DNA from: an uncultured Victivallales bacterium
GTDB taxonomy: Bacteria; Verrucomicrobiota; Lentisphaeria; Victivallales; UBA1829
DNA: 64,000 nucleotides
Assembly (NCBI GenBank): GCA_944391115.1
Contig: CALXSJ010000010.1
Span: 1-64,000 of the forward strand
Reading direction: 5' to 3'
Under the pieces are notes generated by a model. That model was not told the DNA's origin. It saw nothing but the letters and a program-made list of their open reading frames with translations, and ran no database searches. A program made the position numbers and the translations under genes. Of the stretch, positions 3,501 to 63,917 are shown one piece after another; the first letter of the stretch is position 1, and each line of letters starts with the position of its first letter.

Positions 3501-3984
3501 CCAGTTTTTTCCATGATTCCCGCGACTGGATCCTGACAAGTCCGCATCCATTCCGGATCATGGACAGAAGACGGAATTTCTGTTCATCCGGCAAAATGGA
3601 GAAATGGACATTTCCCATGACGACGATGTCATAGTTCTTTTCCAGTTCCCGTTCCAGTTCATTCAATTTTTCCGCCGAGGACAATCCCTCGACCTGATTC
3701 GCATAAATATCATCCGATCCAAGCGCCTTTTCGGAAGCGGTAAGCACCGTTTCACAGAGGAATCCGGGAAAGCGCTGCCGCAGTTCAATGATCTCCCTTG
3801 ACGCTGTTTGCGGCAGAATGAACAGCACTTTCCTGCGAGGCAGGTCGGATTTTTCATCCCAGGCCGCATGGGGGGTCTTCAGAGTCATACGCGCCTCATT
3901 TACATAGCTTCCCTCATGTTTGGCCAGGAGCGGCAGAAGCCATGAGAATGAAAAGAGAACCAGGAAAAGTGTCTGTTGTTTCAT
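580..3984 (-). CDS. large secreted glycoside hydrolase-like protein, GH42-like barrel
   Basis: A 1134-residue exported protein. I chose the ATG at 3984 because a signal peptide (MKQQTLFLVL to LLPLLA) follows directly and GGAAGG precedes it; the longer frame upstream has neither. An N-terminal amidotransferase-like alpha/beta domain (about 45-160) is followed by beta-sandwich sequence (about 270-420) and a TIM-barrel region (about 430-720). In the barrel, the motif NLGDENHF near residue 555 resembles the Asn/Asp-Glu acid-base strand of clan A hydrolases such as GH42. A Rossmann-like segment (about 750-930) matches the GH42 trimerisation-domain layout, and a beta domain ends the protein. The specific sugar target cannot be read from the sequence. 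It sits in the operon with a CBM9-like protein and a pseudopilin. Confidence 0.7.
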   Translation of the reverse strand: MKQQTLFLVLFSFSWLLPLLAKHEGSYVNEARMTLKTPHAAWDEKSDLPRRKVLFILPQTASREIIELRQRFPGFLCETVLTASEKALGSDDIYANQVEGLSSAEKLNELERELEKNYDIVVMGNVHFSILPDEQKFRLLSMIRNGCGLVRIQSRESWKKLERIPYRKPYAEPLPRPEWVSLASELPGVRPNDFEQRIFNAWRFGKGRIIEVDYGAGYQDGVALTPFFQYDYDWFFQYETSQVFLARLLYYASGWEIPAIPVRKDRGAFIMSPPPGTDASGRIRNQENAVIRNNLDFQGLPAGKYAADFLLREKGKLTAFMTHPFLVESAFGALSVEAPRVVNDRRPFRGKLRLASAAKTDLRVQAELLDAPYRNIWSRKMLSVPKGAQEISFEMQNYRMPAIGGYLRCTVSNAEGESAHAECQILFPDYSLEDYIQITWGHVGCTFNPAFGERIIDRLGWNIALHFFKKGKDETAFRNEKICPYVTRIELTAGPKGEVRFPRWWFLPQAYRKDWRELGGDESFCRPEVRRLWSLSVRSQASYLKDLSPVLYNLGDENHFTYDAGFGKSDRKGFADFLQEKYGDIGNLNSEYEADYPDFASVPHLRPEEAKRTGNLIAFNDHREYVEKMYVDLHHFLAAEIKKVDPRARVGAEGSPAGNLEKMLAGLDFWGPYSNMIGNEALRAFGADRIRTIWWGGYCSQRASYPYKLWEHLIQGAINGHAWFIINPALSESSHAGDLSEAEYLRNYMPFLDDLNYGIAHLLIRTPLPDDGILFHYSHASAAAAAADSRCVKPEASLNPLLRYCYQRGLGFNFTSLNTLERLQSAKILFLCGTSALSDRECAAILAFTERGGITVADANIAILNENLKKRRKNPLAALFGDLTFETAKELEILPYAAAAENLTLRAGKAYAVPGNPGLRIRKYGRGKAVLLNASLSVMENNSASDAPLNGFLDRLMQTAGVEAMAAIPDFSNDLMVRPRKMKGFEMLAALCREKDIGRVLHAELKKSKYIYECRKGLIGQSPRLAFDFSKTPFHCFALFEKKQSPPILQCPGTVNRGGRVILRISGPEDISGRVYRITLTGPDGQEIRNRSRTVCGKSEYLLDFAYGDPVGDYCIAVSDAATGLSAKHKIKVK

Positions 3985-4016
3985 GTAAATCCTTCCCTTC
4001 AAAAAACTTTCATGAC

Positions 4017-4048
4017 GCGATGCCCGGCATCGCAAGATTCTTTGCAGG
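4017..4048 (+). repeat. fragment of the dispersed multi-hairpin element (copy D)
   Basis: The 173-base gap between the CBM9-like gene and the large hydrolase gene contains a perfect 7-bp hairpin GCGATGC-ccg-GCATCGC at 4017-4033, followed by an A/T-rich stretch and TGCAGG. Stem, spacing and TGCAGG match the first part of the element at 44065-44101. The remaining hairpins are absent, so this is at best a truncated relic. On the minus strand it lies in the transcript between the two genes and could act as a processing or partial termination site. Confidence 0.4.
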
Positions 4049-4157
4049 CAATATATTCCATGCCGTACGTTTTGATGCAGAAAAACTCCCGCGAAAGATA
4101 AGAAACACAGGGAGACCTCTTCTCCGCATCCGATCTGTTTTCATTTCTCCGTCCGAT

Positions 4158-5210
4158 TCAGTTCAGCGTTTCCTCCAGCGCTATTTTCCACTTGAGCTTC
4201 CGATAACGTTCCTCCAGACGGAAGATCTGTTGCAGGAGATAAAAATTCCGCTCTTTCTGCTTTCTCAAAAGGTTCTGCTCCTGCTTCATCGCATTCAGTT
4301 CAGCATGAAAACGACGCCATTCAGGCTGTGTCCGGATTCTCTCCAGTTCCCGGGAGACTGCCTCCAGATTTCCGAATGCATCCCGGAATGCATCTTCCGC
4401 CTTCTTCAGCGCATGGACGCCTTTCTGTCGCAGTATCAGAGTATCTCCGAACTGCATTCCCCATGGTTCTTCTGCGGAACGTCCCAGGCGGGCGGCAATC
4501 TTTTCCGCTGTCACAGACTCATTTTTCCCCTTGAAATAAAGGTAGCCGAATTTGCGCGGATTGGAATAGCCGCCCAGCAGAGAACTTGTGACTCCGATAA
4601 AATTTCCGCTTGTATAGGCAAAACGGACATGGCAAAACATCCAGAGATCGGAAACATCCGCCTTTTCCGGCAAATCGCTCCAGGGGAAAAAGGCTTCGAT
4701 ATTCCATCTGTCTTTTTCAATTGCGGTACGTGCGGTCCAGCCGGTTCCGCTCCAGTCGGTCTGATAAACCGCAGCATCCATCCGCCGGAAATCCATGCGT
4801 GTCCCGATGCAGTTGATTTTGAAGCAATGATAACTGATTCCGTTTGCCCTGGCATCAAAAAACAGCTCGGCGCAGTCATCCCGCCAGATGTTTTCATTGT
4901 CAAAATCCGTGATCCTGCGCTGCAATTTTTCCGGATGCGGTTCGAAATTTACAATTCCGAGATAAATCCCCCGGTTGTCATAGAGCATGCGGAATTCCGT
5001 TCTGATCTTTCCCGGTTCCGGAAGAGGCCGGTTGAAAGTCAGATAATTGGAAAATACCGCTGCTTTTCTCCAGACGGCTTCGTCAAGTTTCCCGTCTATC
5101 ACGGGCGGCGGACCTGATAGAGGGTCAACGATGTAAAATGACAGTTCACGCGGCACGGCTCCCAGAAGCAGGGTTGCACTCAGCAGGGTGAAAATCAGCA
5201 ATTTCTTCAT
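4158..5210 (-). CDS. secreted CBM9-like carbohydrate-binding protein with coiled-coil tail
   Basis: A 350-residue exported protein with a signal peptide at residues 1-18. Residues about 25-245 carry the family 9 carbohydrate-binding-like fold (the DUF1083 type): PPVIDGKLDEAVW at the start, then EFRMLYDNRGIYLGI, the conserved WRDDCAELFFDA strand and FPWSDL near the end. The last hundred residues are charged and helical, probably a coiled coil. It starts three bases after the pseudopilin stop with AAGGAATG as ribosome-binding site, so the two are co-translated. No catalytic residues are evident; the likely role is binding polysaccharide at the cell surface for the hydrolase encoded downstream. 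Confidence 0.78.
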   Translation of the reverse strand: MKKLLIFTLLSATLLLGAVPRELSFYIVDPLSGPPPVIDGKLDEAVWRKAAVFSNYLTFNRPLPEPGKIRTEFRMLYDNRGIYLGIVNFEPHPEKLQRRITDFDNENIWRDDCAELFFDARANGISYHCFKINCIGTRMDFRRMDAAVYQTDWSGTGWTARTAIEKDRWNIEAFFPWSDLPEKADVSDLWMFCHVRFAYTSGNFIGVTSSLLGGYSNPRKFGYLYFKGKNESVTAEKIAARLGRSAEEPWGMQFGDTLILRQKGVHALKKAEDAFRDAFGNLEAVSRELERIRTQPEWRRFHAELNAMKQEQNLLRKQKERNFYLLQQIFRLEERYRKLKWKIALEETLN

Positions 5211-7037: not shown

Positions 7038-7207
7038 GAAGCCACCAAGAAAAAAATAAATTTTTTTGACATGCTGCCATCTGGCCTGAGGGAAGAAAAA
7101 GGGAGAGGAAAAAAGCAGATATGCCTGTTCCCTCCTGGAGTCCATTCTCACGATTGCATCAATAATCAGGCAAATGAACTGCCCTGGCACAGAGCAGGCG
7201 AGGGTCT
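7038..7207. other. intergenic stretch, no gene seen
   Basis: Between the GntR-type promoter and the dispersed repeat I see no coding frame with a ribosome-binding site. The first 30 bases are very A/T rich; the rest is ordinary. A weak inverted repeat (CCCTGG / CGAGGG type) near 7182-7204 adjoins the multi-hairpin element. It may be the diverged distal part of that element. Confidence 0.4.
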
Positions 7208-7307
7208 GGGATTTCGCCTGTGGCGACCAGCTTACGCAGCTGGATTGAGAGTCCTGCATGAAGCCGTTTTGCGATGCAGAGTATTACGGTATTATCCTAA
7301 ATTTTTT
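7208..7307 (-). repeat. dispersed multi-hairpin element, copy A
   Basis: Read on the minus strand, this 100-base stretch aligns with 44045-44154 from AAAAAATTTAGG through to GGCGAAATCCC. It keeps hairpins TCGCC-tgt-GGCGA (7214-7226) and CCAGCT-tacgc-AGCTGG (7227-7243). The GGACT hairpin is shortened, and the GCGATGC hairpin is degraded (GCGATGC with GTATTAC). It lies just downstream of the GH78 rhamnosidase stop and reads in the same direction as that gene, so it would form a structured 3' untranslated region. No coding capacity is evident. Confidence 0.75.
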
Positions 7308-7376
7308 AATGACCTGATCCCATGGAAAAAGCGATCCATAGAGATTCCCATGAAAATCCTGAGGATTGACATCCTG

Positions 7377-43955: not shown

Positions 43956-44044
43956 AATCCTGTTTCCTTGTGATGTAAAAAAAAATACGGACGCGGAAGC
44001 ATCCGGAAAGGGATTTCCGCGTCCGGAGGAGATCCGTTTATTCA

Positions 44045-44185
44045 AAAAAATTTAGGTTAATACCGCGATGCTCTGCATCGCCAAAAATTGCTTCGTGCAG
44101 GACTCTCAGTCCTGCCGCGGTCCAGCTGCGTAAGCTGGTCGCCGGAGGCGAAATCCCCAATACCGCGCATGCTTGCATCGCGGTA
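44045..44185 (+). repeat. dispersed multi-hairpin element, copy B (most complete)
   Basis: A 141-base element in the gap between purM and the thioesterase gene. After AAAAAATTTAGG it contains five hairpins in a row: GCGATGC-tct-GCATCGC (44065-44081), GCAGGACT-ctc-AGTCCTGC (44097-44115), CCAGCT-gcgta-AGCTGG (44122-44138) and TCGCC-gga-GGCGA (44139-44151), plus an 11-bp stem with one bulge TACCGCG(C)ATGC/GCATCGCGGTA (44161-44185). TACCGCGATGC near the left end (44061-44071) recurs inverted at the right end, so it has terminal inverted repeats like a MITE or REP-type element. Copies A and C align with it. Confidence 0.8.
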
Positions 44186-44187
44186 AT

Positions 44188-45243
44188 TTATTTCACGTGG
44201 GATTTTCCGGTGCCGGCGACGACCTCGCCGCAGACGAATGCGTCGAATCCCGCCTCGCGGCAGAGACGGAGCGCCTCTTCTTTGTCATGCTCCGGAACGA
44301 AGAAGACCATGCCGACGCCCATGTTGAAGACGCGGAAGGCTTCGGAGTCCTCGATATTGCCCTCTTCGACGATCAGCTTGAAGATCGGCGGCGGATTCTG
44401 GATCGTCTCCTTGTAGAAGACCGCGTCCACGTCTTTGGGGAGAATGCGCGGAACGTTGTCATAGAGGCCGCCTCCCGTGATGTGGGCGACGCCGTCGAGA
44501 GAGACCTCCGAGTCCATCAGACTCCGGACCGCCTTCCAGTAGCAGGTGTGCGGCTTGAGGAGCGCTTCGCCGATGCTTTCTCCGTTGAGCTCCTTCAGAT
44601 GGGAGGACACTTCGTAGCGGCGCATCGTGAAGAGCACGCGGCGCGCAAGGCTGAAGCCGTTGGTGTGGAGTCCGTTCGAGGGCAGGGCGATCGCGACGTG
44701 TCCCGGACGGATTTTTTCCCCGGTGATGATGCGGTCCTTCTCCACCATGCCGGTGATGACGCCGACCAGGTCGAAATCGTCGCCGTACATGCCGGGCATT
44801 TCCGCAGTTTCCCCGCCGAGGAGCGCGCATCCGACCTCGCGGCAGGCGTCCGCGATTCCCCCGACGACCTCTTCATAGAGCGGGCTTCTGAGTTTTCCGA
44901 TGCCGATGTAGTCCAGGAAATAAACCGGTTCGGCGCCCTGGACGGAGATGTCGTTGACGCAGTGGTTGACGATGTCGTGCCCGACCGTGTCGAATTTGTG
45001 CATCATCGCCGCGACCATGAGCTTGGTTCCGACGCCGTCGATGCTGGCGACCATGACCGGATTCTTCCATTTCGACAGATCGATCTGAAAAAGTCCGCCG
45101 AATCCGCCGATCGGAGCAAGCATTTCGGGACGCTTCGCGGCGGCGAATTTCGGTTTGAGACGTTTCAGAAGGTCGGTTGCCAGATCGATATCCACTCCGG
45201 CGCTCTTGTAGGTCGAGTGCCCGTTTCCGCTGCTTTGTGTCAT
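44188..45243 (-). CDS. purM: phosphoribosylformylglycinamidine cyclo-ligase (AIR synthetase)
   Basis: A 351-residue cytosolic enzyme of purine synthesis that converts FGAM and ATP to AIR. Signature segments are all present: YKSAGVDIDLATDLLKRLKP, ASIDGVGTKLMVA, HDIVNHCVNDISVQGAEPVYFLDY, LLGGETAEMPGMY, LPSNGLHTNGFSLAR and AHITGGGLYDNVPRILP. The ATG at 45243 (GGAGC upstream) gives standard length; an upstream frame to 45420 has no support. The 3' end lies two bases beyond the multi-hairpin element, whose terminal stem could act in termination. No other pur genes are adjacent. Confidence 0.96.
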   Translation of the reverse strand: MTQSSGNGHSTYKSAGVDIDLATDLLKRLKPKFAAAKRPEMLAPIGGFGGLFQIDLSKWKNPVMVASIDGVGTKLMVAAMMHKFDTVGHDIVNHCVNDISVQGAEPVYFLDYIGIGKLRSPLYEEVVGGIADACREVGCALLGGETAEMPGMYGDDFDLVGVITGMVEKDRIITGEKIRPGHVAIALPSNGLHTNGFSLARRVLFTMRRYEVSSHLKELNGESIGEALLKPHTCYWKAVRSLMDSEVSLDGVAHITGGGLYDNVPRILPKDVDAVFYKETIQNPPPIFKLIVEEGNIEDSEAFRVFNMGVGMVFFVPEHDKEEALRLCREAGFDAFVCGEVVAGTGKSHVK

Positions 45244-57746: not shown

Positions 57747-57770
57747 GCATTCCGTAAAGGAAATCAGTGA

Positions 57771-57866
57771 ATCCCGCGATGCTTCGCATCGCAAAGACTG
57801 CTTCGGGAGTTTCAGTCCTGCTTCGGTCCAACCTGTACAAGCAGGCCGGGGCAGGCGGAATTCCGG
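57771..57866 (+). repeat. dispersed multi-hairpin element, copy C
   Basis: It lies between the convergent dehydrogenase and DNA methyltransferase genes. It aligns with copy B through GCGATGC-ttc-GCATCGC (57776-57792), a CTTCGGGAGTTTCAGTCCTGC stretch, and a CCTG-tacaag-CAGG stem (57832-57845) that replaces CCAGCT/AGCTGG. It ends with GGCAGGCGGAATTCC in place of GGAGGCGAAATCCC. The stem positions are kept although several bases differ. No gene is present in this gap. Confidence 0.65.
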
Positions 57867-57901
57867 ATGCGGGCGTGTGCTCCGCGCCGAGGCGGTTCAT
57901 T

Positions 57902-62348: not shown

Positions 62349-63917
62349 ATGGATTTCATGCCGCTGCTTGCAGCACAGCAGATCGGAGGCGGAGCAATTC
62401 TGCTCATCGTCATCATTGTCTTTGTGGCGTTCGCCGTACTCATCAGCGTCCTTGCCAGAATCAAAAAATGTCCGTCCGACCGGATCATGGTCATCTACGG
62501 CTCCCAGGTTCTCCACCGGGACAAGGCGACCCGGCATGCCGCGCGCTGCATTCATGGCGGAACGGCGTTCATCTGGCCGGTCATCCAGGATTACGGCTTC
62601 CTCTCGCTGCGGCCGATCCAGCTGGAGGTGAATCTGCGCAACGCCCTCTGCAAGCAGAATATCCGCATCAATGTCCCCTCGGTATTCACGGTGGGCGTCA
62701 GCACGGACGAAATGCTCATGGGGAATGCGGCGAACCGTCTGCTCGGACTTCAGCCGGACGCCATCGGCGAACTGGCCAAGGACATCATTTTCGGCCAGCT
62801 CCGCCTGGTGATCGCCTCCATGACGATCGAGCAGATCAATTCCGACCGCGAAACCTTCCTCCGGAGCATTGAGCAGAACGTCGCCGAGGAACTCAACAAG
62901 ATCGGTCTTCTTCTGCTGAACGTCAACATCACCGACATCACCGACGAGAGCGGATATATCGACGCCATCGGAAAACGTGCCGCGTCGGAAGCCATCAACA
63001 AGGCCCGCATCGAAGTCGCTGAAGAGGAGCGCAAGGGCGGAATCGGAGAAGCCGAGGCGCGCAAGGCTCAGCGCATCGCCGTTTCCCAGGCGGAGGCCGA
63101 GGCTCAGGCCGGAGAGGCCAATGCCGACCGGGAACGCCGCATCGCCGTGACCCAGGCGGAGGCCGAGGCCCAGATCGGAGAAGCCAACGCCGACAAGGAA
63201 CGCCGGATTTCCATCAAACAGGCGGAAGCCCTTGCGATCGAGGGCGAAAACGTCTCCGCGATTGAGATTGCAAAGTCCAATGCCACAAGGGTGGAAAACG
63301 AAGCCGACGCCTACCGTCAGGCGGAAGCCGCCAAGCGGATTGCGGAGGCCAAGATCAAGCAGGCCGATTACGAGGCGGAAATGCTTGCGCAGATCGCCCG
63401 CGCAAAGATGGAGACCGAAAAGCAGAAGGCTGAAACGCTTGTCCATGCGGAAATCGAGAAGGAGCAGGTGGTCATCCAGGCGGAGGCCGAGGCGGAGAAG
63501 CGCAGACGCGAAGCCAAGGGCGAAGCGGATGCGATCTATGCGAAACTCGAAGCCGAGGCACGGGGAAATTATGAAATCCTCAAAGCCAAAGGCGAAGGCT
63601 ATAACCAGATTATCTCCGCCTGCTGCGGCAACGCCGATGCCGCAGGAAAAATGCTTCTCATCGAAAAACTTGAGGAACTGGTCAAGCTGCAGACCGAGGC
63701 GATCCGGAATATCAAGATTGACAAGGTCACTGTCTGGGACGGCGGAAGCCAGGTCAACGGCAAAACCTCCACGGCCAATTTTCTCAGCGGCATGATGCAG
63801 AGCATTCCGCCGCTTCATGATGTGGCGGGAATGGCGGGAATCGATCTGCCCGGCTATCTTGGCAAACTCAAATCGGAGAATGCCGCGCCTGAGGATGTTT
63901 CTTCCGCACAGCAGTAA
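62349..63917 (+). CDS. floA: flotillin
   Basis: A 522-residue membrane scaffold protein of the FloT/YqiK type. An N-terminal hydrophobic hairpin or helix (about 13-35) is followed by the SPFH domain (about 38-200; VIYGSQVLHRD, TAFIWPVIQDYGFLSL, FLRSIEQNVAEELNKIGL) and a long Ala/Glu-rich coiled coil (about 205-430). The coil begins with nearly identical 22-residue units (RIAVSQAEAEAQAGEANADR; RIAVTQAEAEAQIGEANADK; then RISIKQAEALA). The C-terminus is Gly/Ser rich. It organises membrane domains with the NfeD partner. AAGGAG precedes the ATG. The symbol is by family; floT would be equally defensible. Confidence 0.88.
   Translation: MDFMPLLAAQQIGGGAILLIVIIVFVAFAVLISVLARIKKCPSDRIMVIYGSQVLHRDKATRHAARCIHGGTAFIWPVIQDYGFLSLRPIQLEVNLRNALCKQNIRINVPSVFTVGVSTDEMLMGNAANRLLGLQPDAIGELAKDIIFGQLRLVIASMTIEQINSDRETFLRSIEQNVAEELNKIGLLLLNVNITDITDESGYIDAIGKRAASEAINKARIEVAEEERKGGIGEAEARKAQRIAVSQAEAEAQAGEANADRERRIAVTQAEAEAQIGEANADKERRISIKQAEALAIEGENVSAIEIAKSNATRVENEADAYRQAEAAKRIAEAKIKQADYEAEMLAQIARAKMETEKQKAETLVHAEIEKEQVVIQAEAEAEKRRREAKGEADAIYAKLEAEARGNYEILKAKGEGYNQIISACCGNADAAGKMLLIEKLEELVKLQTEAIRNIKIDKVTVWDGGSQVNGKTSTANFLSGMMQSIPPLHDVAGMAGIDLPGYLGKLKSENAAPEDVSSAQQ

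Follow-up and report, generated by a model that had tools for sequence, protein, structure and literature searches.

A PATE-like repeat of probable IS200/IS605 type in Victivallales with natural guide-base variants and matching targets

In the window, a 64,000-nucleotide stretch of contig CALXSJ010000010.1 from an uncultured Victivallales bacterium, the purM reading frame lies on the minus strand (44188–45195), and its stop codon TAA (44188–44190, minus strand) falls inside the right end of a repeat copy termed copy B. Copy B is a complete non-autonomous element of 150 bases on the plus strand (44043–44192, ends ±1 base because of a shared T); it carries no gene and is too short for a transposase. 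Its boundaries follow from about 20 nearly identical copies whose flanks are unrelated and from orthologous empty sites; with recent copies and their flanks aligned, the ends are placed with a precision of one base. The sequence-only reading, which had delimited the element at 44045–44185, identified a real unit that is slightly longer than proposed.

Five hairpins, as counted earlier, are present in copy B by direct reading and by folding, and its strand folds far better than shuffled sequences (RNA z = -5.1, 0/200). Recent copies begin, after host TT[T/C]ATT, with (T)CAAAAAAATTTAGGTT[A/G]ATACC and the left hairpin, continue with the three internal ones and then [A/G]ATACC and the right hairpin, and finish with GGTAATTTATT. 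At copy B, the host target TTTATT (C_L, 44037–44042, plus strand, as are all features that follow) forms the left flank and is present as a single TTTATT at the empty site in L073 and L071. The left guide tetranucleotide AATA (G_L, 44059–44062) belongs to a family-wide XATA ([A/G/C]ATA), whose first base tracks the target base across copies; it is situated just 5' of the left-end hairpin GCGATGC-TCT-GCATCGC (44065–44081, DNA folding), the place of the guide in IS608 (PMC5934647). Folding further gives internal hairpins 2 (GCAGGACT-CTC-AGTCCTGC, 44097–44115), 3 (CCAGCT-GCGTA-AGCTGG, 44122–44138, a module common to other repeats in the order) and 4 (CGCC-GGA-GGCG, 44140–44150), as well as the right-end hairpin TACCGCG-C-ATGC-TT-GCAT-CGCGGTA (about 44161–44184). 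The tetranucleotide AATA at 44159–44162 is placed as the putative right guide (G_R) by analogy with IS608; in related TnpA-bearing elements ending in GTTCATT, the right guide is GATA. The right end TTTATT (C_R, 44187–44192) is part of the element and constant in young copies even when the left flank is TTCATT. The element is thus asymmetric: its left and right ends differ, the target lies in host sequence beyond the left hairpin, and a terminal cleavage sequence belongs to the element itself. The TACCGCGATGC that had been noticed in inverted orientation at the start and end does lie near both ends, but it belongs to the outermost hairpins, which are subterminal, and does not form terminal repeats.

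To describe the distribution of the repeat, copy B was searched by BLASTN in its own genome (3.66 Mb, 44 contigs), which yielded 54 matches, about 20 of them 95–100% identical over the whole length (about 153 bases). A covariance model built from 30 copies gave at least 149 matches in the same genome; many of those below about 85 bits are, on inspection, a different hairpin-chain repeat that has only the internal hairpins in common with the element, and full-length-like copies are estimated from the score list at roughly 75–85 among the matches listed. Both searches place the copy number above about ten. Within the window, the model confirmed two older copies that had been aligned with copy B near 57771–57866 and 7208–7307 (minus), at 57755–57901 (plus strand, variant right end GTTCATT, 109.4 bits, E = 1.5e-24) and 7173–7308 (minus strand, 96.9 bits, E = 1.5e-21), whereas the proposed fragment at 4017–4048 was recovered only marginally, within a doubtful remnant at 3996–4145 (plus strand, 19.3 bits, E = 0.0065). 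Sister genomes G001 and G003 contain recent bursts of their own and G002 a few copies, and the named genomes with the internal hairpin module are uncultured Victivallales/Lentisphaeria. Tandem arrangement is frequent, with copies placed head to tail and one starting at the terminal TTTATT or TTCATT of another. Contigs C16, C17, C34, C35 and C44 of the own genome (G000) begin or end inside element copies, as expected of near-identical repeats in a short-read assembly. An Rfam search of the window, permissive E-values included, returned only a tRNA and no relevant sub-threshold match, in agreement with the earlier remark that no named family fits the element.

Next, the flanks of each of twelve young copies were joined, searched for in G001–G003 and aligned. 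Empty orthologous sites were found in these sister genomes, and they hold one TTYATT: the window site when compared with L073/L071, L012 with L070, and L007 with L079/L077. The empty counterpart of the window copy reads ...GTTTATT|TCACGTGGG, that of L012 reads ...TTCATT|CGAATTC (G001, flanks 96% identical) and that of L007 ...GGTTCATT|TCTTGAG; the site of L016 is similar, but with TTCATC. Since the empty sites carry one hexamer, the target pre-exists the insertion. Guide-A copies, i.e., those with A as the first guide base, have the same hexamer on both sides, and together with the short inverted TACCGCGATGC near both ends this would be expected of a classical MITE of a DDE transposase that duplicates the six bases TTTATT. 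However, guide-G copies have TTCATT at the left and TTTATT at the right, and their empty site has TTCATT, so that the right hexamer belongs to the element; the inverted sequences are parts of subterminal hairpins. A DDE-type MITE with target duplication is contradicted by these unequal hexamers and is the least credible of the readings weighed here. The same difference between the left and right hexamers of guide-G copies shows that insertion, which takes place 3' of TTNAT, makes no target duplication. The view of the repeat as a dispersed, non-autonomous mobile element, already put forward in the sequence-only reading, is borne out by the unrelated flanks, the constant ends and the empty sites.

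The first base of the left guide and the variable base of the target were then compared. Among young copies of the own genome (n = 20), guide A occurs with TTTAT in 8/8 cases and guide G with TTCAT in 10/12 (p = 6e-5), while the guide-C subfamily of G003 is found at TTGAT in ten of twelve clear cases, the other two lying directly behind another copy. When recent insertions of three species were pooled, guide and target formed a Watson-Crick match in 46 of 59, against 21.7 expected by permutation (p<=5e-6), and in 45 of 54 once copies directly behind another copy were omitted; members of a subfamily have inherited a common guide, and the permutation takes only the insertion events as independent. 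The background of the window does not explain the match, because TTCAT is the commonest TTNAT there (C 236, G 93, T 81). The association is not significant in G001 alone (p = 0.10) or in the older own copies alone (19/43 versus 16.7 expected), and its absence in the latter may reflect decay of guide and flank. Guide G is paired with target T in 6/17 recent cases, which a G–T wobble would allow. On these statistical grounds, the guide A, G and C subfamilies prefer TTTAT, TTCAT and TTGAT, respectively. A distant ~110-base element from a different family within the order (L060:1501-1534, minus strand, G025) has the same right end and an AATA guide with TTTATT, consistent with the guide rule.

Sequences resembling the ends of the element were found next to transposase genes. 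Seven loci in the order (L105, L112, L113, L135, L114, L117 and L119) contain an intact or relic IS200-type TnpA, and a short distance past its stop codon stands GATACC-hairpin-GGTAGTTCAT(T), which is the right end of the element; the autonomous relatives in the order encode an IS200-like TnpA of about 140–150 aa and have the same terminal GATACC-hairpin-GGTAGTTCATT. At L113 the left end matches the element too (TTTATT|CTTTTGGGTTTAATACC-hairpin), a likeness of the form TTTATT|...GGTTTAATACC-hairpin. The L113 TnpA matches Y1_Tnp (PF01797) with E = 2.7e-33, its nearest solved structures are IS200/IS605 transposases, IS608 TnpA included, and HVH (HUH) and Y-x3-Q motifs are seen by inspection. The autonomous Victivallales elements (L113, L135, L112, L114, L117, L119 and the relic L105) resemble the repeat in their right end, next to a TnpA of the Y1_Tnp family, but they measure about 560 bases with tnpA, belong to other genera or families, and have an interior unrelated to the three internal hairpins. 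A search for an intact TnpA of the L113 type in the own genome, G001 and G003 found none, and recent bursts are present in all three; the own genome yielded a single Y1 match, a stop-ridden IS200-like gene, and G002 contains a TnpA relic with 61% identity to the partner TnpA. In two species, a dead IS200-like TnpA gene immediately follows a tRNA gene on its downstream side (L050, G000:C35:25416-25862; L108, G002:C4:48773-49111).

A REP-associated transposase had been suggested as the mobiliser, and the suggestion holds as far as the broad HUH/Y1 class is concerned; the anatomy is nevertheless that of an IS200/IS605 element, not of a REP/BIME unit, and its right end recurs beside IS200-type TnpA genes of relatives. 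A REPIN/BIME-type element dispersed by a RAYT (TnpA_REP), a domesticated REP-associated transposase, would be a high-copy, often intergenic or extragenic palindrome that has a tetranucleotide at the foot of its hairpin and a Y1-class enzyme (PMC3116915, PMC6006769), all of which recalls the Victivallales repeat, and RAYT-like Y1 genes, judged by eye, occur in the order, e.g., L104 in G039. In contrast to such units, the 150-base element is asymmetric, with defined ends, an external left target and its own terminal cleavage sequence, and the TnpAs with the same right end are IS200-type and lie inside insertion sequences. In addition, no RAYT gene flanked by the repeat was found in the own genome, where the sole Y1 match is stop-ridden. 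Spread by a RAYT is accordingly considered very improbable.

The position of the copies relative to genes was assessed with a simple codon-usage script that predicted the genes around them. Of 69 analysed copies, 41 lie no more than 60 bases from a predicted gene 3' end, and for 8/20 young copies, that of the window purM among them, an antisense gene ends exactly in the TTTATT of the element. The target TT[T/C]ATT includes TTA or TCA, a stop codon on the opposite strand; at the empty sister site the purM stop codon falls in the target itself, and among the 73 TTYATT hexamers of the window one overlaps an antisense stop, namely that of the element. Insertion into a stop codon is tolerated because the right end of the element restores the stop, and the bias to gene 3' ends follows from a target with an antisense stop that is restored in this way. 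The proximity of the long copies to gene 3' ends, stressed in the sequence-only reading, is thus observed, but it is explained by the target and the restored stop. The proposal that the element shapes mRNA ends is not supported: the window copy showed no terminator-like site, and the one behind purM (44005–43988) is outside copy B.

A structured RNA or mRNA 3'-end element (terminator or stabiliser), kept for its function and spread secondarily, would likewise account for the stable consecutive hairpins and for the copies within 60 bases of predicted gene 3' ends. Conservation of the hairpins was evaluated over the 30 copies. The left, third and fourth hairpins are paired in 93–95% of cells (95%, 95% and 93%, respectively), with variation almost only one-sided, the second is broken at four pairs in about half the copies, and the right hairpin holds most of the compensatory changes. 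Double-sided changes affect 15 cells versus 8.0 in shuffles (3/500), but the pairs with such changes (5 versus 5.1) show no excess, so the earlier claim that structure rather than sequence is conserved is weakly supported. Such weak covariation, the lack of an Rfam match, the terminator-like site lying outside the element, the orthologous sites that are empty in sister species, and a gene-end bias explained by the target all make a functional RNA element improbable, if somewhat less so than the RAYT- and DDE-based readings. Conserved hairpins at the ends are what TnpA binding would predict, with no need for an RNA function; individual copies may nonetheless influence transcripts next to them.

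The anatomy, copy number, recent spread, empty sites, absence of target duplication, ends in common with TnpA-bearing relatives, guide–target association and stop-codon restoration were all read from sequence here, and with them the repeat is very probably a non-autonomous, PATE-like element of the IS200/IS605 type (single-strand, Y1 HUH), mobilised in trans by an IS200-type TnpA and directed to targets set by its guide. From IS608 and ISDra2 we infer the TnpA binding, the circle intermediate, the pairing geometry and the mobilisation by an IS200-type TnpA. On this model, TnpA would bind the hairpins near both ends on the top strand, and the cleavage positions would be set by base pairing of the guides rather than by the protein: the guides 5' of the hairpins ([A/G/C]ATA at the left, [A/G]ATA at the right) would pair with T[T/C/G]AT in the left flank (C_L) and the right end (C_R). 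The element would exit as a single-stranded circle and insert 3' of TTNAT, leaving no target duplication. A change of one base in the left guide would create a new preferred target (A, TTTAT; G, TTCAT; C, TTGAT), sister subfamilies would have colonised different sites through their differing guides, and insertions in gene stop codons, which restore the stop, would survive and accumulate at gene 3' ends.

Mobile elements of this kind are already known, while the family itself is new; no description of IS200-type PATE or MITE families in Lentisphaerae was found in openly licensed PMC literature. PATEs (palindrome-associated transposable elements) of Haloquadratum walsbyi are mobile even though almost every IS200-type transposase there is a pseudogene (PMC3119063). 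They are similarly transposase-free and numerous, with near-terminal palindromes related to IS605-type ends and no target duplication, but belong to another domain of life (PMC3119063); the Victivallales element differs in its readable guide and target, which covary between subfamilies, and in carrying a three-hairpin module in common with another repeat. In IS608, each hairpin has at its 5' foot a tetranucleotide that base-pairs with the cleavage site, and laboratory changes to the left guide have altered the choice of target (PMC5934647). IS608 (ISHp608, Helicobacter pylori) and ISDra2 (Deinococcus) resemble the element in their subterminal hairpins with tetranucleotide guides at the feet, insertion 3' of a short left-flank target (TTAC; TTGAT in ISDra2), a right-end cleavage sequence of their own and target choice by the left guide (PMC5934647). 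Both are autonomous, whereas the Victivallales element is gene-free; moreover, the retargeting of IS608 was laboratory-made, whereas this family has natural A, G and C guide variants with matching targets. The laboratory rule can thus be read from natural insertions, as one guide base, three subfamilies and three target preferences; the guide–target evolution of single-strand transposons becomes testable by insertion counts, and the crowding of such repeats at gene 3' ends is explained without a regulatory role. We consider it rather likely that new insertion niches evolve in nature via single-base changes of a DNA guide, with hits in antisense stops being harmless and sister subfamilies spreading in parallel within one genus, apparently even without an intact genomic transposase.

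Copies of the three-hairpin module that lack IS-like ends are found as well, in tandem units of ~80 bases at L057:1500-1800 and L066:1440-1725 (G019), and the element seems to have taken up or donated it. A second, larger repeat consists of chains of about ten consecutive hairpins (300–600 bases, conserved order, between genes), and three of its hairpins are in common with the 150-base element. It is located in the own genome outside the window at L281:1480-2105 and at L275:1355-1990 and 3870-4280, as well as at L271, L280, L284, L286 and L292; BLASTN gives 60–75 partial matches in each of G000, G001 and G003, and shorter matches in genus g10. Within the window, a long ORF on the plus strand contains three tandem 66-base repeats at 63044–63241, which are probably coding.
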